Numbered from the stretch's first letter, positions 5,032 through 46,765 are shown. The stretch: 46,765 nucleotides of DNA from Candidatus Aenigmatarchaeota archaeon (GCA_020832825.1 JAJHRL010000003.1:1-46765), one strand, 5' to 3'. A program made the numbers and translations. The notes: generated by a model not told the origin, from the sequence alone.

Positions 5032-5132
5032 GCTGGGGTCGCCTAACCTGGTAGGGCACCAGCCTGCTATAGTTCGACTATGGAAAGCTGGTGGGGTTTA
5101 TCCCCTTGCGGGTTCAAATCCCGCCCCCAGCG
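5032..5132 (+). tRNA. tRNA-Ser(GCT) with a canonical 37/38 intron
   Basis: Acceptor GCTGGGG/CCCCAGC, discriminator G, anticodon stem CCAGC/GCTGG with anticodon GCT at 5066-5068, a long variable arm GGGG-TTTA-CCCC typical of serine tRNAs, and T arm GCGGG-TTCAAAT-CCCGC. The 16-base intron (5070-5085) lies between positions 37 and 38, with bulges TAT and AAA and a somewhat relaxed central helix. A TATA-like tatttaaaa lies at 5000-5008. The ORF-track start at 5091 for the next gene falls inside this tRNA and is not real. Confidence 0.95.
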
Positions 5133-34226: not shown

Positions 34227-34318
34227 GGGCTCGTAGCTTAGCCTGGTGGAGCACCCGCCTTATATGGCGATGCTCCTAGGAAAGCGGGGGGTCGTGGGTT
34301 CAAATCCCACCGAGCCCA
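34227..34318 (+). tRNA. tRNA-Ile(TAT) with a canonical 37/38 intron
   Basis: Acceptor GGGCTCG/CGAGCCC, discriminator A, D arm GCTT...GGAGC, anticodon stem CCCGC/GCGGG, T arm GTGGG-TTCAAAT-CCCAC. The 18-base intron (34265-34282) has a textbook BHB: central helix CTTA/TAGG and three-base bulges TAT and AAA, which place the cut after position 37. The anticodon is therefore TAT (34261-34263), reading AUA directly. A TATA-like ttttaaat lies about 26 bases before the 5' end. Confidence 0.92.
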
Positions 34319-34356
34319 CTACTTCATTCTTATTAGTATGGGAGATAAAAATAGAA

Positions 34357-37086: not shown

Positions 37087-37332
37087 TCAAGCTTCTTCTT
37101 TTGCCATTTGATAAATCTCTCTTACCATCTTCTCTATACTTGAGATTTTCTCCGCTAGCAACTCATATTGAAGTTTTAAAGCGTCTATCTTTGCCATCAA
37201 GATTTCCATTTCTGGTTTTTGTTTCTCTTGAGTTGGTGCTTCTACATTTTTTACTTGCTGCAGTTGTTGGATAGGCGGAAAAACGGGCTCTTCCTTCTTC
37301 TCCTTTCTAAACGGGTTTCTAATCTTAAACAT
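37087..37332 (-). CDS. Small coiled-coil protein
   Basis: This 81-residue protein has a basic N-terminus (MFKIRNPFRKEKKEEP), a P/Q-rich linker and a C-terminal helix with heptad spacing (ILMAKIDALKLQYELLAEKISSIEKMVREIYQMAKE). No membrane segment is present. A single charged helix with a basic tail suggests a membrane- or nucleic-acid-associated adaptor. It is on the same strand as, and between, the Yip1 gene and the tandem paralogues, so it may be part of one transcript. Confidence 0.55.
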   Translation of the reverse strand: MFKIRNPFRKEKKEEPVFPPIQQLQQVKNVEAPTQEKQKPEMEILMAKIDALKLQYELLAEKISSIEKMVREIYQMAKEEA

Positions 37333-37360: not shown

Positions 37361-37858
37361 CTATTCTAACTTAAGCAAAGATTTATAAGCTCGTAGAATC
37401 TTCTCGATCATCTCGCTACACATTTTTATATACTGTCTCCTTACTCTAAAGTAAAAAAAGAAATTGTAGAGCCAGAGAAGAGTTTTATAAAACGATGACT
37501 GTTGAAATGGTGTAATCAGCTTAAATTCAGTTTTAAGTTTACCTCCAATAAGGATAGTAAGCGTTCCATCTTTAGATGGATCTGTAGGTTGATTTCCGTC
37601 CATTACTATTTCAAAATAAATAGTGCTTCTTGCATCCATTCTTTTCTCAACAATTATTCTTGCATGAAATCCTCTTGGGTCAGAAGCTATACTCCACACA
37701 AATTCCCTTTCCTGATAATCTGCAGGATCGATCTCAATAGCTGCACGAAGAAGGCTATAAGCGGATTGATAAGCTTGGAATGGATTTGGTCCTTTATATA
37801 CAATTTTGACATGTCTCTCTGGAGCCAAACAATCGTCTTCTAAAATCCATACTGGCAT
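37361..37858 (-). CDS. Unknown protein, paralogue of the upstream neighbour
   Basis: This 165-residue protein has no recognised motif. It aligns along its full length with the next gene upstream: EDDCL near the N-terminus, KIVYKGPNPFQAYQSAYSLL, YQEREFVWS, a central basic section, DGTLTILIGGKLKTEF, and a helical C-terminus with aromatic pairs (LLWLYNFFFYFRVRRQY) and KMCSEMIEKIL. The fold looks like alternating strands followed by two helices, comparable to SRPBCC/START-like proteins, but this is not shown. It lies one base after its paralogue. Confidence 0.62.
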   Translation of the reverse strand: MPVWILEDDCLAPERHVKIVYKGPNPFQAYQSAYSLLRAAIEIDPADYQEREFVWSIASDPRGFHARIIVEKRMDARSTIYFEIVMDGNQPTDPSKDGTLTILIGGKLKTEFKLITPFQQSSFYKTLLWLYNFFFYFRVRRQYIKMCSEMIEKILRAYKSLLKLE

Positions 37859-37859
37859 A

Positions 37860-38408
37860 TTATCTCCTAGGTAGCGTATTTAGAAACTCTTTAATCGAGG
37901 AATGTAACTGCATCATGAGATTTGCACACTCTCGTTTATACTTCATTCTAGCTTCTTCATATATGAATTTATGATAAAACGTCCTAAAAAGTTCGTAAAG
38001 CAAACTTCTTTGCCAAAGTGTATCTTGTGGATACTCTGTTCTTAGCATACCCTCAATAGTAATAGAAAGATCTCCTTCCTTTCCTACTTCCTTACTTGGC
38101 CTTATTTTTCCTTTCATCGTTACACTTATTTGAATGTAGCTAAACCTATCCATATCTTTTATTACATCAAACCTTACAGAGAATTTTTCTTCCATTCCTT
38201 CTCTCATCCAACTAAAATCTCTTTCTATTATTTCGGTTTCCGGAACTTTGGTTATTTGAGATAGAATCTTTTTTGTTTGATAGTATGCTGCTTGAGGATT
38301 TGGACCGGAATATTCTAAAGTTATAAACTTCTTGCCTGGAAAAGGAGACCCAGGCACTTCCAAACAATCCTCATGAATTACCAACTTTGTTCTCGCAAAT
38401 ATTGGCAT
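37860..38408 (-). CDS. Unknown protein, paralogue of the downstream neighbour
   Basis: This 182-residue relative of 37361-37858 has matching blocks HEDCLEVPG, FITLEYSGPNPQAAYYQTKKIL, IIERDFSWMREGMEEKFSVRFDV, DLSITIEGMLRTEYPQDTLWQ, LLYELFRTFYHKFIYEEARMKYKRECANLMMQL. Both retain the E-D-C-L motif near the N-terminus, the G-P-N-P turn and the L-x-T/R-E section, which suggests a shared function and possibly a heterodimer. There is no membrane helix, but an aromatic-rich helix may touch a membrane. It is divergent from the 38520 ORF and the 590-residue gene. Confidence 0.62.
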   Translation of the reverse strand: MPIFARTKLVIHEDCLEVPGSPFPGKKFITLEYSGPNPQAAYYQTKKILSQITKVPETEIIERDFSWMREGMEEKFSVRFDVIKDMDRFSYIQISVTMKGKIRPSKEVGKEGDLSITIEGMLRTEYPQDTLWQRSLLYELFRTFYHKFIYEEARMKYKRECANLMMQLHSSIKEFLNTLPRR

Positions 38409-38700: not shown

Positions 38701-40473
38701 ATGATTGAGTATCCGCGTTATCCTGCAGATTTTCCTCCGAAGATGAGACCTGGGGAAGGAGTAAATTCAAATCCCAATGATCAAAATGAAACTTTGGTTT
38801 ATAGTGCTCCGTTAGGAGGATGTACTAAAGTTTACTACAGTCTGATGGTTTGGCTTGGAACATGGGGGTTTCAAACCTTCAAAGTTGAAGAGAGCATATT
38901 CGTTTCTCCAGTAAATAAGAATTACTATGAAATCGTGTTAGGAGAGAAAGAAAGACTGGCCCAGCAGATTAAAACTGGTTTAACAAGCATTGCTCAAGCT
39001 TATGCGGATCTTGAGCTAATTTTACATGATCTAAGAAAGTACAAAGAATATGTAAGGCTTTTCAACGAAATTGAAGAAGCAGAAAATATTTTAAAGAAAG
39101 AAAAAGATGAAAAGAAAATTGAAGAGGCGAAAAATAAGAAGATAAAGGCCTTACAAACATTAAGATCCATTTTCATAGATCAAGTTGACGTGCATACAGA
39201 TTTACCAAATGTTCCTATAGCCCTTCGCTCTATTGCTTCAAGATGGCCAACTATAATCTCAGATTTTATGAAGCTTGATAATGAAAGCAAACCAGAAGAA
39301 ATAAAATTAGATGTTTCCTATGCTGAAAAAGTTGTACTAGCTACAAAGAATAAGCTATTCTGGAGTTGGTTGGAAATGTTTAAGAATACGGTTAAACAGA
39401 GGTACGAAAGGTTAAAAGAGCTGGCTGTGGCAAGGGAAAACTCTGTAAGAGAATATAAAGAGATGCTAAAACCAATTGCAGCAAGATATAAGATGATAAA
39501 TGACATGCTTAGCTTTCCTGAAAAGAGGGGGAGAATGTATGTTCACGTTTTTAGACCAGAGGCTCAGGCTTTTTCTATAGATACTATGACTGTGTGGGCC
39601 TGGAAACCGTTTGCACCAGAGGAAAAATGGAAAGCGAGCAGGCAGCAATTTGACAAAGTACCTGCAAAACAAGCCGGTTTTACTGATGAGGAAATAGAGG
39701 AGATAAAAAAAATTCAAAAAGAGAAAGGTAAGAAGTATGTCGATGAGAATGGAATGGTAGAGGCTTTGCCAATAGAGCCTTCTATTGATGGTATTGTAAG
39801 AGAAATAGTGAGAAAAATAAATGAAGATTCGGAATATAAAAAGTTTGGAGTAAAAATTACTACGGAAGACCTTTTTGAAGCAAGAAAAAGACTTTTAGAG
39901 AGATACCGCAAACTACCTGAAGGATCTGGCGGTGTAATTTGGCCTTTTAGTCCGTATTTCGTATTTGTTGAGATTCCAATGAGAAGAACATGTCTGCTCC
40001 TGCCAGATGGTACCCAGCTTGAAAGTCTGGCTATAGAAAATTTAAGAACATATGTTAAGACTCAAAACATAATAATTGGGCACATTCTGGAGGTAATGGC
40101 AAGAGAGAAAATATTAGAGAATTACATAGGCCAACTACTAGGAGAATTTGGAATAGATAAGGAAGGGAAAGTGAAAAAAGTTGAAGAAATGTTAAAGGAG
40201 GAGTTTCCCTATATTTATGGAGAAGTTAAAAAAACAACGGAAACAAAAGAGAAAGAAAAGAAAGCTGGTGTGTTGGATTTTCTGAAGAAAATCATGGACT
40301 ATTTTGGAATTCAACTAACATTCTTAAGATCGTATGGACCTTACGAATTTAATGTAGCTTATCGATTAGCAAAACATTACTTTAAATTCTCTGGAGAAGT
40401 GTTTAAGCAAATCAAAAGTTTTCTTGACTCTTCTTTCCAAGTTCCAGGGGCCTCTGCGGAGGTTAAAATATGA
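38701..40473 (+). CDS. Large protein of unknown family (590 aa), cassette gene 1
   Basis: I do not recognise this family. The N-terminal ~80 residues carry tryptophan/aromatic-rich strands (GGCTKVYYSLMVWLGTWGFQTFKVEE); the middle is long charged helices (ILKKEKDEKKIEEAKNKKIKAL; YERLKELAVARENSVREYKEMLKPIAARYKMIN) that should form coiled coils, and a conserved-looking RMYVHVFRPEAQAFSIDTMTVWAWKPFAPEEKW and GVIWPFSPYFVFVEIPMRRTCLLLPDGT follow. The C-terminal part again has helices and a short hydrophobic section. No membrane helix, P-loop or nuclease motif is seen. Its last four bases (ATGA) overlap the next gene, so the two proteins are probably made together and may form a complex. Confidence 0.62.
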   Translation: MIEYPRYPADFPPKMRPGEGVNSNPNDQNETLVYSAPLGGCTKVYYSLMVWLGTWGFQTFKVEESIFVSPVNKNYYEIVLGEKERLAQQIKTGLTSIAQAYADLELILHDLRKYKEYVRLFNEIEEAENILKKEKDEKKIEEAKNKKIKALQTLRSIFIDQVDVHTDLPNVPIALRSIASRWPTIISDFMKLDNESKPEEIKLDVSYAEKVVLATKNKLFWSWLEMFKNTVKQRYERLKELAVARENSVREYKEMLKPIAARYKMINDMLSFPEKRGRMYVHVFRPEAQAFSIDTMTVWAWKPFAPEEKWKASRQQFDKVPAKQAGFTDEEIEEIKKIQKEKGKKYVDENGMVEALPIEPSIDGIVREIVRKINEDSEYKKFGVKITTEDLFEARKRLLERYRKLPEGSGGVIWPFSPYFVFVEIPMRRTCLLLPDGTQLESLAIENLRTYVKTQNIIIGHILEVMAREKILENYIGQLLGEFGIDKEGKVKKVEEMLKEEFPYIYGEVKKTTETKEKEKKAGVLDFLKKIMDYFGIQLTFLRSYGPYEFNVAYRLAKHYFKFSGEVFKQIKSFLDSSFQVPGASAEVKI

Positions 40474-42296
40474 GCTATAAAATTGGTGTTTCGAGCGGAT
40501 GGTGGAGTATTGCAAGAAGTGAGGAATTATTGGGTATAGCGAGTAAGATAGGTTCTGTTGCAACTTATGGTGTAAACTTCGTTCAAGTTGATTTTGAGAG
40601 CATAGCGGAGTTTCAAGAACCAGAGGTTATCAAAAAAATAAAGAGACTTGTGGATACTCTGCAAGTAGATTGGGGTATGCATGGGGAGATTGGAGAAATG
40701 ATGGCTCTTGAAAGCGCCCTTGAAGTTTTTTGGAAGCATAGTCATAGGAGGCTTCATCAATATTTAGATACAATCTATTTGAAATTCTGGATAGAAGGAG
40801 ATTATAGAGAATACATTCCAAAATACATCGTTTTTCATGCTTCTAATACATTGACAATAGCTATGATTGTTGAAAGATATAGATATGCTGGGCAAATGAC
40901 TGTAACACCATTTGGAGATGTTAATTGGATAGAATTCATCAATAGAAATAAAAAATTAAAGGAATGGGTTGAAAAAAGCAATTTGCTTTACTTTTTAATT
41001 GGAAAGGAGAGCGGTCTCGGTTTTGTATCTGTTGAAGACATAAAAAAGAAGATTTATGAAAAAATAGGAGAAGAGGTTATGAAAGAAGGCGAATCTCTTA
41101 AGGAAGAGTTAGAAAAGGAAGTAGAAACTCATAGGCATGCATGGGAGTTTTTCAGAGAGATTACAAAACTTAGGTTTGCAGAAGGCGCAATAACCTATGA
41201 AGACATAGCATATCTTATAGTAGCAAGATATCTTTTCGAGGAAAGGAATAATCCGAACGAGCCTCTATGGAATCTTTTCTTTCCTAACTATTCAACAGAA
41301 AATGGATGGGAAAAACTTGAAGAAGATTTGATGGGAAAGGAAGTAAAATTCTTAAATATTGAAAAGGGAGAGGTAAGATTACCTCCACAAATAGTAGCTT
41401 TAGTTGCAGCAAGATACATTCTTGGTCATTTCACAGAAAGAAATAAGGAAGAATTTATAGCAGAGGAGAAGAGACAGTTGGAAAGAATTCTACCAAAAGA
41501 CAAATTGAAAGAAATAGAGGAGAATTTCCTAAAGAAAACACCATTCGAGAAACTTGCAATATTAAACAATCTTATCTCAGAAAAAGTAGGAAAGGAGAAA
41601 AGAAAATTCATGATACTTTTTGAAAATCCTGAACTTAAAGCGGCTGGGGAAGAAGGATTACAAAGGCTTATCCACGCTGTTGACATCTACAAAATGGTTA
41701 AAGCTGCAGAAAAAATTGCTAAAGATGTGTACATAGGAATGGTTTTTGATCAGGAGCACTATTTGCACAATAACTTAGACCCAATGAACGAGATAAAAAG
41801 TCTTAAGAGCGAAGCAAGCGACTTAGGAAAGTTTCTTCTCGTTTTCCATGTCGGTGCTCCTAAACCTTATCATCCTGCTCATGAACCGATAGATATTGGT
41901 AGTGAGGCACAATTTTGGATTTACAAATATGCATACGAACTTAGAAAACTTGGATTTGGAGTGGGAGAAAATGAAGGAATTTTTATTTTTGAGAGAGGCG
42001 GAGCCAGAGGACAAACTCCAGCTCAATTTATAGGTCAATCGGCTGCTGCACTAAGAATTATTGTTGAATATCTAGAGAAAAACGTGGAACCAGAAAAGCT
42101 TCCACCAGAATTTTATGGTATTTCCCCGAAAGAGATACTTGCTGAAGAAAGACAGCTTGCTATTATTAGAGAGCATTTCTTCGATCCGCTAAAAGGTTTG
42201 TTGCAAGTTCCTGAGGAAGAATACACATTCTTAGGAAGTAAAGCCATAGAGAAAGGGAAAAGACCTGAAGAATGGAAGAAAGAAGAGATAAGATAA
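40470..42296 (+). CDS. Endonuclease IV-like/sugar isomerase-like TIM-barrel protein with a large insertion
   Basis: This 608-residue protein has the metal-site motifs of the AP endonuclease 2/xylose isomerase superfamily in order: H71 (WGMHGE), H123 (IVFHAS), E385 (ILFENPE), D427-x-x-H430 (VFDQEH), H460 (VFHVGA), H468/H471 (YHPAHEPIDIG, like the R-H-E-N-I-G of EndoIV) and E508 (FIFERGG). EndoIV has about 280 residues; here ~260 residues, mostly helical, are inserted between the second His and the first Glu. The EndoIV D-x-H pair is H-x-x-H instead. It may be a repair endonuclease or an isomerase/epimerase; the ligand set favours a metal-dependent enzyme. It overlaps the 590-residue gene by four bases. 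Confidence 0.75.
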   Translation: MSYKIGVSSGWWSIARSEELLGIASKIGSVATYGVNFVQVDFESIAEFQEPEVIKKIKRLVDTLQVDWGMHGEIGEMMALESALEVFWKHSHRRLHQYLDTIYLKFWIEGDYREYIPKYIVFHASNTLTIAMIVERYRYAGQMTVTPFGDVNWIEFINRNKKLKEWVEKSNLLYFLIGKESGLGFVSVEDIKKKIYEKIGEEVMKEGESLKEELEKEVETHRHAWEFFREITKLRFAEGAITYEDIAYLIVARYLFEERNNPNEPLWNLFFPNYSTENGWEKLEEDLMGKEVKFLNIEKGEVRLPPQIVALVAARYILGHFTERNKEEFIAEEKRQLERILPKDKLKEIEENFLKKTPFEKLAILNNLISEKVGKEKRKFMILFENPELKAAGEEGLQRLIHAVDIYKMVKAAEKIAKDVYIGMVFDQEHYLHNNLDPMNEIKSLKSEASDLGKFLLVFHVGAPKPYHPAHEPIDIGSEAQFWIYKYAYELRKLGFGVGENEGIFIFERGGARGQTPAQFIGQSAAALRIIVEYLEKNVEPEKLPPEFYGISPKEILAEERQLAIIREHFFDPLKGLLQVPEEEYTFLGSKAIEKGKRPEEWKKEEIR

Positions 42297-42324: not shown

Positions 42325-43152
42325 ATGATTGAAAAGCTGGAAAAAGAATTAGAAAATGTTAAGCTTGTAAAGAAAGACGAAATAGAGGAAAGGAAAAATT
42401 TCTTAATCGAAAAAAGTGTGAAGCTAATGAATGAAGTTAGAAAAAAATTTGGAGAAATAGTTAAATCTGTTTTAATATTTGGCTCCGTTGCGAGAGGCGA
42501 CCTTAAGCCAACTTCAGATGCTGACGTATGGATAATACTCGATGATACTCTTTCAAAGACATCTGTAGATCTAGAAAGAGTGAAAGAAGAGATAGTAAGC
42601 ATGGCAGAAAGTCTGAAGGATTTACATGTACAAACTACATATCTAACTGAATTCTGGCAGTGGGTTAGGGCAGGTTCACCAGAATTGGTGAATTTCCTAA
42701 GATATGGCCTAGTTCTTTACGATACAGGATTTGTAAAACCTGTACAGCGCATGCTTCAACTTGGATTACTTCCTCCTAGTGAAGAAGTCATTAAATTAAA
42801 GCAAAAAACCTCGGAAATAAGACTAGAAAGGATAAAAGGAGATTTGAAAAACCTGGTTTTTGATTTGAGGTATTGCGCGAGCGATATGATACAAGCTGTT
42901 GTTATGTACTATTATAAAACTCAGCCGGATCCAAAAGACATTCCTAAGTATTTGGAAAAAATGATAGAAGAAGGTAAAATAGAGAAAGAGATCCTAGAAA
43001 AGTGGAAAGAGATTGATAAGCTATGGAAAGATGTAGACCATCAAATTGTCAAGGAAGTTGATGGAGAGTATGTTCAAAAAACTTTGAAATTAACACAAGA
43101 AATAGTTGAAAGAATGAAGAAATTGCTTCCTCAAGAAATATTGGAGGTGTAA
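42325..43152 (+). CDS. Nucleotidyltransferase with HEPN-like C-terminal region, copy 1
   Basis: This 275-residue protein has a Pol-beta-type nucleotidyltransferase domain (VLIFGSVARGDLKPTSDADVWIILDD, residues ~50-75, with G-S and D-x-D). The region where a third acid is expected reads HVQTTYLTEF, so that ligand is not obvious. The C-terminal half is helical (DLRYCASDMIQAVVMYY...KEIDKLWKDVDHQIV) like a HEPN domain, but the R of the R-x4-H motif is a tryptophan here. MNT and HEPN domains often form toxin-antitoxin pairs or tRNA/protein-modifying enzymes. It follows the TIM-barrel gene by 28 bases and its paralogue lies three bases downstream. Confidence 0.72.
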   Translation: MIEKLEKELENVKLVKKDEIEERKNFLIEKSVKLMNEVRKKFGEIVKSVLIFGSVARGDLKPTSDADVWIILDDTLSKTSVDLERVKEEIVSMAESLKDLHVQTTYLTEFWQWVRAGSPELVNFLRYGLVLYDTGFVKPVQRMLQLGLLPPSEEVIKLKQKTSEIRLERIKGDLKNLVFDLRYCASDMIQAVVMYYYKTQPDPKDIPKYLEKMIEEGKIEKEILEKWKEIDKLWKDVDHQIVKEVDGEYVQKTLKLTQEIVERMKKLLPQEILEV

Positions 43153-43155
43153 AAA

Positions 43156-44289
43156 GTGAATGAAAGAGAGAAAAGAATGCAAGAGGCAAGAGAGTTTGCA
43201 AAGAGGGCATTAGAAAAATATGGCAACCTGATAAAATCTATTGTCTTGATGGGCTCGCTTGCTAGAGGAGAATTTAAGCCAGAAAGTGATATAGACATAA
43301 TAGTAATATTAGATGATACGCTAGAAGAGTTAAGCGAACAAAAATTAGAAGCGATAGATGATGATTTGGAAAAAATAGCAAAAAGTATTTCAGATAGACT
43401 ATCAATTCAACCATCTTACACTTTAACTGAGTTTGTTGATTATGCAAAATCTGGTCATCCCATAGTTTACAATTTCATCAAAGAGGGGGAACCTCTTTTT
43501 GATTCTGGCTTCTTCATGCCATGGAAAAGACTACTTAAACTTGGAAAGATTCAGGGGACGAGGGAAGCAATAGAGAATTATATGGAAGATGCTCCAAAAA
43601 AGTTAGCTAGGGCAAAAACTGTAAAATTGTTAATGCTTGCCGAAGATTGCTATTACGCTATGGTAAACTCAACCCAAGCTGTTCTAATGTTCATGGGTTT
43701 GGAACCACCTGTACCAAGTAAGTTGTATGACGAAGTAATGGAATATCTCGTTAAGCCTGGTCTTTTAGAAGAAGAATATGCAAAATGGTTGAAAGAAATT
43801 GTTCAAATAAGAAAAGACATAGAACATAAAAAACTTTTGGATGTTAAAGGAGAATTTGTAGATCAATGGATTGAAAGAGCGGAAAAATATGTTGAAAAAA
43901 TGTTTAACTTGCTTAATGCGCTTGAGATAAGAAAGAAAGAGAAGATTCTTGAAAGAACGCATGAGGTTATGATTAAAGCTGCAGCAACGGCCATAAAAGC
44001 CTTACATAAGTTGCCAGAAAACATGCAAATAGATGAATTGGAAAAACATCTAGGAATTAGTATAAGAGATGCTTTTAAAAGAGACTTCATAGATTCAAAA
44101 AGAATTGAAGGATATTACTTTGACATTTGGAAAAGAATTGAAGAATTGAAGAAAGAAGTTATAGATGAAAAGAAATTGGAGAAGTTAAAAGGAAATGAAG
44201 TAGAGCAATTGAGAGAATATGTAAGAAAGCTTATTCATGAGCTCTCTAGAGCTTTGAAAGAAGAAAGGAAAAACATTGAACAAAGCTAA
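43156..44289 (+). CDS. Nucleotidyltransferase with HEPN-like region and extra C-terminal domain, copy 2
   Basis: A GTG start is supported by GGAGGTG at 43143-43149. The 377-residue protein aligns with copy 1: IVLMGSLARGEFKPESDIDIIVILDD near residues 34-60, SIQPSYTLTEF, then HPIVYNFIKEGEPLFDSGFFMPWKRLLKLGKI and a helical section with IRKDIEH, which keeps the HEPN R-x4-H motif that copy 1 has lost. A further ~110 charged helical residues (KILERTHEVMIKAAATAIKALHKL...LIHELSRALKEE) may be a second HEPN-like bundle. It is the last gene of the plus-strand cassette. Confidence 0.72.
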   Translation: MNEREKRMQEAREFAKRALEKYGNLIKSIVLMGSLARGEFKPESDIDIIVILDDTLEELSEQKLEAIDDDLEKIAKSISDRLSIQPSYTLTEFVDYAKSGHPIVYNFIKEGEPLFDSGFFMPWKRLLKLGKIQGTREAIENYMEDAPKKLARAKTVKLLMLAEDCYYAMVNSTQAVLMFMGLEPPVPSKLYDEVMEYLVKPGLLEEEYAKWLKEIVQIRKDIEHKKLLDVKGEFVDQWIERAEKYVEKMFNLLNALEIRKKEKILERTHEVMIKAAATAIKALHKLPENMQIDELEKHLGISIRDAFKRDFIDSKRIEGYYFDIWKRIEELKKEVIDEKKLEKLKGNEVEQLREYVRKLIHELSRALKEERKNIEQS

Positions 44290-44544: not shown

Positions 44545-45360
44545 TTAAAATTTTGAGGATAAATTACTAGCTTCATGCTTTTCTGACCGAAAGATCTTTA
44601 AGGCCTTTTCATAACTTTTCATATCATTGATCGGTAGCCAAACATCTGGCGGAACAACTAGACTGTAAAGTTTTCCTTGAGAGGCAAGCCGAGGTATAAT
44701 AACATCTTCAAACTCAATTGGTTTTGGTAGAGTAATTTCTATCTCTTCTCTTATTAAATCAAGGACCTCTTTTTCAAACATATAGAGACCAATGTTAGTT
44801 AAGGTATCTACTAATGGTTTCTCAACGAAAGAAATAACCTTTCCCTCTCCATTCAATTTAGCAACACCGAATGGAAACTCTATTCCATTTACTAAAGTTA
44901 TCGTACCTAGTGAGCCATATTTATTAACAAAAGAAAGATGTTGAAGAAAGAGCTTTAATGGTAGTAGAGAATCGAACTTCAGATCATCTGGAAAAGAAAT
45001 TATAAACCTTTCCTTTTTTATTTTTCCTTGATCAAGTGCATATTTCAAAGCTTTTCCTTTTCCCCAATTCTCCGTTGTTGGATCAACCGAAATTTCCACG
45101 CTAAATCTCTTCTTATAACCCATTTTTTCCACATGCTCTTCTATTTGTTCATGCATATGACCAAGAACTAAAACAAAATTTTTAAATCCACATTTAGCAA
45201 AGAAATCTAACTCATTGTCTAATAGTGTCCATCCTTCCCTCAATTCGAGTAATGCTTTTGGTTTATCTATTTTTCCCATTCTTTTTGCGGAACCGCCAGC
45301 AAGAATAACAACTTGAGTTTTTTCTACCTCTTTCTTAAGATTTTCTAAAATCTCTACCAT
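44545..45360 (-). CDS. Sugar-nucleotide transferase (NTP_transferase family)
   Basis: This 271-residue protein is related to GlmU-, RmlA- and ManC-type enzymes that couple a sugar-1-phosphate to a nucleotide. Visible: the signature VVILAGGSAKRMGKIDKPKALLEL near residues 17-40, a second metal/sugar site region with FPDDLKFDS (compare the usual GD), GKVISFVEKP and NIGLYMFEKEVLDLI, and no left-handed helix repeats, so it is transferase only. The short D-D instead of G-D is a family variant. It could supply activated sugars for surface glycans, consistent with the many sequons in exported proteins here. Confidence 0.85.
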   Translation of the reverse strand: MVEILENLKKEVEKTQVVILAGGSAKRMGKIDKPKALLELREGWTLLDNELDFFAKCGFKNFVLVLGHMHEQIEEHVEKMGYKKRFSVEISVDPTTENWGKGKALKYALDQGKIKKERFIISFPDDLKFDSLLPLKLFLQHLSFVNKYGSLGTITLVNGIEFPFGVAKLNGEGKVISFVEKPLVDTLTNIGLYMFEKEVLDLIREEIEITLPKPIEFEDVIIPRLASQGKLYSLVVPPDVWLPINDMKSYEKALKIFRSEKHEASNLSSKF

Positions 45361-45398: not shown

Positions 45399-45498
45399 AG
45401 CCCTGGGAGGGATTTGAACCCTCAACCCCCCGCTAGCTTGCTATCATCAATCAAACTAGCGATACAAGGCGGGTGCTCTACCGTTGAGCTACCAGGGC
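45399..45498 (-). tRNA. tRNA-Thr(TGT) with a canonical 37/38 intron
   Basis: On the minus strand: acceptor GCCCTGG/CCAGGGC, discriminator T as usual for archaeal tRNA-Thr, D arm GCTCAACGGTAGAGC, anticodon stem CCCGC/GCGGG with anticodon TGT (plus-strand 45464-45466), T arm GAGGG-TTCAAAT-CCCTC. The 28-base intron (45435-45462) has a perfect central helix CTTG/CAAG and three-base bulges TAT and CTA, placing it after position 37; the helix inside the intron is weak. Confidence 0.94.
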
Positions 45499-45539: not shown

Positions 45540-46765
45540 TTAAGTAATCTCTATAATCTGAGCATAACCATCCGCACTTTTATCTCTTTCCAATTTATAT
45601 GCTTTTCCTGTAACTGCTTCTTGCAATCTTTCATCATGAGTTATAATAAAAACTTGATCCATAAATTCAGAAACATTCTCTCTCAAAACTTTTGCTAATT
45701 CTTCTACAGCCTTTTGGTCTAAGTTATGAGTTGGTTCATCTAGAATTAAAATTCTTAATTGAGGGGCCAAGGCCAAAGAAAAAGCAATTCTCAAAGCTAA
45801 ACAAGCTAAGCTTCTTTCCCCCCCAGAAGCTATTCCCTCTACATTTACCCATTTTCCGCTTCTTTCCTGCAATTGCAGAACATAGTCTCCTTCTTCAATT
45901 TTTAAGGCAAGAGAAACATAGTCGCCGTAAGGGTAAAGGTTTGACCATATGCTTGCCATGTAATGATTGACCGTTTCAACAAAATCCTCCCTAATTTTAA
46001 CTTGAGTCATTTCCAACGCCTGTTTAAGAACTTTTAAGTCAACCAAAATCTTATTTAACTTCTCAACTTGTGTTCTTTCTTTTTCCATGAACTCCAAATT
46101 TTTCTCTATCTCTTCTTTTCTCTTCGTTTCCCTTCTCACAATTTCTTCCATTCCCTTAATCTCAGTTGCAATCTCTCTTTCTACGCTAATTAATTCTACA
46201 AGCCTTTTTTCCATTTCATCCACATTCTTTCCTTCGAGCAACTTTGTTAATTCTGAAATTTTCCTCTCAATCTCTTCCTTCCTTCTTTCATATTCTTTCC
46301 TTCTTTCAATCAAATTCTCCAAATCTATAATCCTTTGCCTGATTGTTTCAAAATTAGATTTTTCCTCCAAAACCCTTCTTAATAATTCCTCTTTCTCCTT
46401 TATTTCATTCCTCAAACTTTCAATCTCTTTGATAACGCTTGCTTTGTTGTCTTCATTAATTTTTAAAGCACTCTTACTGAATTCTAGCTCTCTCAAAAGT
46501 CTCTCTTTGTCTCCAATTAAAACTTTCATCTTCTCGATTTCTTTTAACTTCGCTTTAATTTCTTCTATTTCCTTTCTCATTTCAGCTTCTTTTTTTATCA
46601 ATTTTTCTACCTCTTTTTTTCCCTCTTCTATTTCCTTCTGCTTTTTCTCTATAATCCTCTTCTTTTTATCTTCCGTTAGTCTTGTCTCACAAACAGGACA
46701 TTTGCTTTCTGCAGAAGAAAGTTGAAGTATTGCCTCTTCAGCCTTTTTAATTTCATTTCTTAGCA
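45540..46765 (-). CDS. rad50: DNA double-strand break repair ATPase Rad50, C-terminal part
   Basis: The gene continues past the window edge; the track start at 46601 is internal, since the frame stays open through KCPVCETRLTE, the zinc hook (C-x2-C, about 46690-46705), to the last base. Visible beyond the hook: the descending coiled coil (~200 residues), then the ABC signature ASGGERSLACLALRIAF, Walker B ILILDEPTHNLD and the H-loop FIITHDERL. Rad50 with Mre11 tethers and processes DNA ends. About 408 residues are present, which is roughly the second half. Mre11 is not in the window. Confidence 0.95.
   Translation of the reverse strand, partial: LRNEIKKAEEAILQLSSAESKCPVCETRLTEDKKKRIIEKKQKEIEEGKKEVEKLIKKEAEMRKEIEEIKAKLKEIEKMKVLIGDKERLLRELEFSKSALKINEDNKASVIKEIESLRNEIKEKEELLRRVLEEKSNFETIRQRIIDLENLIERRKEYERRKEEIERKISELTKLLEGKNVDEMEKRLVELISVEREIATEIKGMEEIVRRETKRKEEIEKNLEFMEKERTQVEKLNKILVDLKVLKQALEMTQVKIREDFVETVNHYMASIWSNLYPYGDYVSLALKIEEGDYVLQLQERSGKWVNVEGIASGGERSLACLALRIAFSLALAPQLRILILDEPTHNLDQKAVEELAKVLRENVSEFMDQVFIITHDERLQEAVTGKAYKLERDKSADGYAQIIEIT

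Follow-up and report, generated by a model that had tools for sequence, protein, structure and literature searches.

A giant xylose isomerase-like barrel with an endonuclease IV-type metal site in a conserved gene module of Aenigmatarchaeota

The locus studied here raises the question of what is encoded by the long open reading frame (ORF) at positions 40470-42296 in DNA from a Candidatus Aenigmatarchaeota archaeon (GCA_020832825.1, JAJHRL010000003.1:1-46765). We refer to this whole stretch of 46,765 nucleotides as the window; its host genome is 703 kb and 82.5% complete. An initial annotation had described the product as a giant protein resembling endonuclease IV (EndoIV), i.e., a metal-binding triosephosphate isomerase (TIM) barrel enlarged by an insertion. 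The ORF is genuine; it encodes 608 aa and has relatives in 141 of the 156 Aenigmatarchaeota genomes, including 38 of the 39 that are at least 90% complete. It starts with ATG, overlaps the upstream ORF at 38701-40473 (F2) by 4 bases and is closely followed by same-strand ORFs at 42325 and 43156. The protein and its relatives were termed family F1, and its layout in the window is as follows.

40470..42296, plus strand: giant xylose isomerase (XI)-like TIM-barrel protein of family F1, 608 aa (ORF, relatives, fold, profile-profile alignment)
40470..40850, plus strand: residues 1-127, first half of the barrel; it comprises strands 1-4 and carries ligands H71 and H123 (model secondary structure, invariance)
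40851..41603, plus strand: helical insertion between strands 4 and 5, about residues 128-378 (alignment, model); the region includes native helix 4 (358-373) and conserved Y248, W267 and G319-H320
41604..42089, plus strand: roughly residues 379-540, second half of the barrel; it comprises strands 5-8 and carries ligands E385, D427, H430, H460, H471 and E508
42090..42293, plus strand: residues 541-608, a conserved C-terminal extension with a tail that finishes in ..GKRPEEWKKEEIR (low model confidence in much of it)

We built an AlphaFold2 model of F1 from an eight-sequence alignment (mean predicted local distance difference test score, pLDDT, 67.9; predicted template modeling score 0.72). The model is a (beta/alpha)8 barrel with strands at residues 3-8, 37-41, 67-71, 119-127, 381-385, 422-427, 456-461 and 503-507, and each proposed ligand sits at or close to the C-terminal end of a strand or in the loop directly after it. 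A non-TIM fold or scattered ligands would have spoken against the initial annotation; a TIM barrel with its ligands at the strand ends was predicted instead, as far as a model can tell. When the model was compared with the PDB by Foldseek, XI-like barrels occupied the top ranks, with D-tagatose 3-epimerases first and the viral apurinic/apyrimidinic (AP) endonuclease AsfvAP at rank 35.

Placing F1 by sequence required family profiles, as single-sequence searches were uninformative: the window protein alone retrieved nothing useful from Pfam, NCBIfam, PHROGs, PADLOC or the PDB. The Pfam family PF01261 (AP_endonuc_2) matched 31 of 60 F1 members (best E 8.9e-17), and the window protein itself was not matched. 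Therefore, F1 membership in the PF01261 superfamily rests on the family and on an alignment from which the insertion was excised. The top PDB sequence match of the F1 family profile was EndoIV (E 0.0045). With residues 136-375 retained, profile-profile comparison gave a local match covering the first half of the barrel only; with these residues removed, the F1 profile aligned end to end with XI-like proteins over 227 columns (E 1.6e-14). In this register, F1 residues pair with XI-like residues as H71/H65, H123/H105, E385/E147, D427-H430/D176-H179, H460/H204, H471/H215 and E508/E244. The same excised profile aligned with EndoIV-like proteins over 152 columns (E 3e-10), and the profile of the insertion alone matched neither EndoIV nor XI-like profiles. 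The eight model strands, the XI-like PDB matches and the profile alignment together bear out the TIM barrel.

The second and third ligands, H123 and E385, are 262 residues apart in the window protein. In archaeal proteins of EndoIV size, the corresponding distance is 39-40 residues, and the giant family spans 183-504 (median 286). The insertion had been put at about 260 residues, helical and after the second ligand; its helical nature and its place between strands 4 and 5 were upheld, and its net size was corrected to about 220 residues.

Conservation was scored over 60 aligned F1 relatives, which are about 22-50% identical to the window protein. Eight residues are the proposed metal ligands: H71, H123, E385, D427, H430, H460, H471 and E508. 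G34, H71, H123, G149, H320, E385, D427, G495 and E508 are invariant in the alignment, and for H430, H460 and H471 conservation is 90% or higher; thus, the eight positions proposed at the outset to match the EndoIV-type set in order did so across the family. This invariance, together with the insert-excised profile alignment, rules out a chance ligand match. The C-terminal tail, which terminates near EWKKEELR, is also conserved. H320, within the insertion, is present in all 60 members of the main family; it was ruled out as a universal catalytic residue, being substituted in some outer relatives. EndoIV has nine metal ligands (PMC13113976). F1 has eight of them; the ninth, the Asp of D-x-H two residues before the loop His after strand 7 (the D229 equivalent), is not conserved in the Aenigmatarchaeota family. 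Accordingly, the likeness between HEPIDIG of F1 and EndoIV held only in part, in that HEPIDIG corresponds to the H-x-P-I motif downstream of D-x-H and the Asp of the preceding D-x-H is unconserved. On these data, we consider it almost certain that F1 adopts the XI-like TIM-barrel fold, carries ligands of the EndoIV type and contains a large insertion.

Our search covered 392 genomes, of which 236 came from other parts of the archaeal domain. Giant forms were found in further families, including one (f49) with several single-contig genomes, in which the F2-F1-F3 gene order (F3 encodes nucleotidyltransferase-HEPN proteins) was kept at all eight loci examined. In another phylum, a distant giant form with the same insertion adjoins nucleotidyltransferase-HEPN genes in nine of ten genomes (e.g., L141 and L142). 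Around F3 matches in further families, we found proteins of 559-675 aa with the same strand-4/5 insertion (190-303 residues between both ligand positions), and PF01261 matched down to 5.7e-17 in those scanned; at L187, L188 and L191, the giant barrel lies between an F2-like gene and F3. Several of these 559-675 aa proteins retain the D-x-H Asp. We infer from their small genomes and from the F3 literature that the distant giant-barrel families belong to DPANN. In archaea outside these families, matches were mostly in ORFs of 240-400 aa. Within Aenigmatarchaeota, F1, F2 and F3 were all missing from seven genomes (G052, G026, G013, G098, G093, G001 and G064); most of these are incomplete and the genes are adjacent, and only the absence in G013 (94% complete) is persuasive. 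In a FastTree phylogeny of 72 sequences, families f49, f21, f28 and f101 formed clades with support 1.0, and f1, f2, f5 and f30 were split. Because many families form clades and some are split, F1 was probably inherited mostly vertically; besides this, there may have been some transfer or paralogy, or the family labels may depart from the true tree. One relative (L051 6980-8833, minus strand) carries an N-terminal stretch, ahead of the barrel, that matches Pfam glutaredoxin (E 3.4e-10).

The phylum-wide spread of F1 and the conserved module around it are the main point overlooked by the first reading of the window. The genes at the locus are as follows.

38701..40473, plus strand: F2 partner, 590 aa; long helices of coiled-coil type, together with a beta region, are predicted (ORF, locus comparison, model)
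42325..43152, plus strand: F3a, minimal nucleotidyltransferase (MNT) fused to HEPN, 275 aa (Pfam, motif inspection)
43156..44289, plus strand: F3b, nucleotidyltransferase-HEPN-like protein, 377 aa (Pfam, motif inspection)
37860..38408, minus strand: F4a, small protein, divergently encoded and conserved at the locus (no Pfam match)
37361..37858, minus strand: F4b, F4a paralogue, divergently encoded and conserved at the locus (no credible Pfam match)
37087..37332, minus strand: F5, short protein present at 14 of 48 compared loci
44545-45360: sugar nucleotidyltransferase-like gene downstream of the operon (Pfam scan)

We compared 48 loci, some of which are truncated at contig ends, so that partner counts are minimum values. 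F2 accompanied F1 at 41 loci, a nucleotidyltransferase-HEPN gene at 36 and the divergent F4 at 29, and the conserved order was F2, the giant barrel F1 and one or two F3 genes. F2 had no credible Pfam, NCBIfam or PDB match; its model, of moderate confidence, combines extended coiled-coil helices with a beta region, and Foldseek retrieved only generic coiled coils for it from the PDB. A match of the F2 profile to the FimD usher (E 0.004) was weak and was treated as chance. A viral origin was dropped as a leading idea: neither the barrel nor F2 had notable PHROG matches, and F2 had no viral fold match at E <0.001. F3 genes are fused nucleotidyltransferase-HEPN genes, near phylum-wide and syntenic, rather than showing the patchy, mobile two-gene pattern of toxin-antitoxin systems. 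Nearly all of the listed F3 sequences, F3a and F3b among them, retain an intact nucleotidyltransferase motif, GSxxRG..SDxD. The HEPN motif R-x4-H is kept in F3b (RKDIEH; RKxxEH), and F3a has W-K-D-x-D-H (WKDxDH) instead. The gene for ribosomal protein L35Ae was near the operon at nine of the 48 loci (two of the nine were checked against Pfam), and NFACT-R and CRS1/YhbY genes were also nearby in some lineages. Close to their N-termini, the F4 relatives often carry the motif EDC or DDC. In one genome, an 803-aa ORF lies between the barrel and nucleotidyltransferase genes (L036 2363-4774). At three loci of one genus (L182, L183 and L184; genomes G036, G039 and G038, respectively), a second XI-like barrel gene of ordinary size (265 aa) is located just downstream of the operon, and the L182 barrel has CbiR and fructoselysine epimerase model matches under the cut-off.

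According to Makarova et al. 2019 (PMC6393860), the MNT-HEPN family cls.004259 (NEQ050) is DPANN-specific, occurs in 36 of 67 genomes in a house-keeping context and has no assigned role. F3 is probably the same family, judged by its description.

What reaction might such a module perform? We tentatively favor the idea that F1 acts as a metal-dependent phosphodiesterase and belongs, with F2 and F3, to a complex linked to RNA or translation, a plausible reading that falls short of probable. The barrel would bind two or three divalent metals and, like EndoIV and CbiR, hydrolyze a bond of the phosphodiester or nucleotidyl-phosphate type; hydrolysis is proposed because of this analogy. CbiR, a phosphodiesterase of the same superfamily, shows that non-DNA phosphodiesterases occur there (PMC7733943). 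The insertion and C-terminal tail may serve as a substrate lid and as a docking surface for F2, and F1, F2 and F3 may form a single complex acting on RNA or a nucleotidylated target close to translation. The F3 nucleotidyltransferase would attach 3' residues or nucleotidyl groups, which the barrel would remove or trim; the pairing of the two suggests a cycle of addition and removal or the processing of RNA ends. The L35Ae, NFACT-R and CRS1/YhbY neighbors point towards translation at a minority of loci, and the module would have a house-keeping function rather than one in mobile defence. Rather doubtful is the wider proposal that the giant EndoIV-type barrel, the coiled-coil protein and the nucleotidyltransferase-HEPN writer form an ancestral complex of small-genome (DPANN-type) archaea, catalyzing an essential RNA- or translation-linked phosphodiester reaction absent from the known repertoire of other archaea.

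Several points weigh against a phosphodiesterase. The chemistry and substrate of F1 are inferred rather than drawn from enzymatic data, and the XI-like superfamily also holds isomerases, epimerases, dehydratases and related oxidases. The Aenigmatarchaeota family has lost the equivalent of EndoIV D229. Confidence in the F1 model is moderate overall, dropping to low values within parts of both the insertion and the tail, and translation-related neighbors occur only at a minority of loci. In addition, two distant relatives (L186 8645-10510 and L189 12419-14383) have lost some metal ligands and, judged by these losses, are possibly inactive versions; therefore, catalysis may be dispensable in some lineages.

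The same two relatives fit the possibility that F1 is mainly a structural or regulatory scaffold whose metal site serves folding or ligand sensing, and the coiled-coil partner, the large insertion and the conserved C-terminal tail are also consistent with it. We regard this as unlikely, since the strict ligand invariance in the 60 sequences, at identities as low as about 22%, speaks for a catalytic role in the main family. Activity on sugars or sugar phosphates, as an isomerase, epimerase or dehydratase, is a rather improbable alternative. The D-tagatose 3-epimerases are the top PDB fold matches, and a sugar nucleotidyltransferase-like gene lies downstream in the window. However, that gene is not among the families recurring at F1 loci, the partners of F1 are nucleotidyltransferase-HEPN proteins, and the conserved H71, H123 and H471 exceed the smaller single-metal set of the epimerases.

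An enlarged EndoIV, i.e., a DNA-repair AP endonuclease in which the insertion adds a DNA-binding or damage-specific surface, would explain the eight shared ligands, the top PDB profile match and the fold match to AsfvAP. However, the NCBIfam deoxyribonuclease IV models (TIGR00587 and PRK01060) did not match the window protein, and EndoIV models matched none of the giant relatives scanned. The same genome separately encodes a 274-aa EndoIV-like protein, to which the deoxyribonuclease IV models are closest with scores under the cut-offs; an EndoIV-size gene is found in the host genome and in most relatives, and replacement of EndoIV by the giant protein was thus ruled out. By its sequence, F1 is no true endonuclease IV, because it has lost the ninth ligand, is matched by no EndoIV model and coexists with a separate EndoIV-like gene, and the initial reading as an endonuclease IV is not supported. 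Moreover, the F1 profile is no nearer to EndoIV than to the mixed XI-like set, and F1 is accompanied not by repair genes but by nucleotidyltransferase-HEPN genes, with translation genes at some loci. An AP endonuclease is therefore distinctly improbable.

We also considered a multinuclear non-heme iron-dependent oxidase (MNIO; DUF692, MbnB/TglH) that modifies a peptide or protein and needs F2. The ligands of TglH (H71, H107, E151, D184, H216, D229, H231 and E258) are in near-identical order and a partner protein is involved; however, Asn187 of TglH takes the position of H430 in the D-x-x-H of F1 (PMC10880893). DUF692 was not among the 25 commonest of the 77 families matched by the 60 F1 members, no candidate for a precursor peptide came up, although no search aimed at one was made, and an MNIO is very improbable. 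The least probable reading is a toxin-antitoxin or antiviral defence module of the HEPN-MNT type with the barrel as an accessory nuclease, for which the minimal nucleotidyltransferase and HEPN, the R-x4-H of F3b and weak PADLOC matches of the nucleotidyltransferase domain to candidate systems speak, and against which stand the near-universal, syntenic occurrence across the phylum, unlike patchy defence islands, and the house-keeping context that Makarova et al. 2019 give for the DPANN-specific MNT-HEPN family (PMC6393860).

Elsewhere in the window, three Rfam tRNA matches of 92-101 bases were found at 5032-5132, 34227-34319 and 45399-45498; ARAGORN detected only one of them, with no assignable anticodon, and the three genes may contain introns. 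A partial ORF at the window edge (45540-46763, minus strand) has Rad50-type ATPase matches under the cut-offs. The neighbor cluster grouped with it was a mixture of ABCE1 (L060) and Rad50-like (window) proteins and was not used as evidence.

Literature searches retrieved no published description of the giant barrel family, in agreement with the initial statement that no described member was known; only the nucleotidyltransferase-HEPN family that is probably the same as F3 has been listed, as DPANN-specific dark matter. That is, F1 is a variant of a known superfamily inside a conserved and so far undescribed genomic module. F1 is encoded beside the same partner genes in almost all Aenigmatarchaeota and in several small-genome archaeal lineages, and this pattern suggests a core function that awaits study. 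Among tiny archaea, which are mostly symbiotic, few lineage-defining genes have a testable predicted chemistry. F1 combines near-universality in one phylum with a recognizable metal site, a distinctive insertion, conserved partners and recurrence in distant archaea, and it offers concrete residues for mutation and a defined complex for reconstitution. It is also a likely enzymatic partner for a previously unexplained nucleotidyltransferase-HEPN family.

Compared with known systems, F3 resembles cls.004259 (NEQ050) in being lineage-specific and in its house-keeping context, and the available part of the published account says nothing of an associated TIM barrel or coiled-coil protein (PMC6393860). 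The multi-metal TIM-barrel site of F1 is similar to that of the MNIO/DUF692 oxidases MbnB and TglH, and a need for a partner protein is a further likeness. We know of no MNIO/DUF692 protein with an insertion like that of F1. The D-tagatose/D-allulose 3-epimerases resemble the F1 model as its top Foldseek matches; they are proteins of about 290 aa with a single-metal site that lack the extra metal histidines. CbiR and the XI-like archaeal proteins of L182-L184 share the superfamily and the ligand order with F1, and the mixed XI-like set that contains the latter (A6) was the end-to-end partner of the insert-excised F1 profile. CbiR-type proteins, at about 265 aa, lack the insertion; the CbiR model NF041277 did not match the window protein and reached 26.4 bits against a cut-off of 105 for L142, and no cobamide genes were recognized among the recurrent neighbors at F1 loci. 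Endonuclease IV (Nfo; PF01261) differs from F1 in lacking the strand-4/5 insertion of about 220 residues and the C-terminal extension and in having the conserved ninth ligand, and the two are alike in the TIM barrel, in the best PDB profile match and in the ligand order H-H-E-DxxH-H-H-E.

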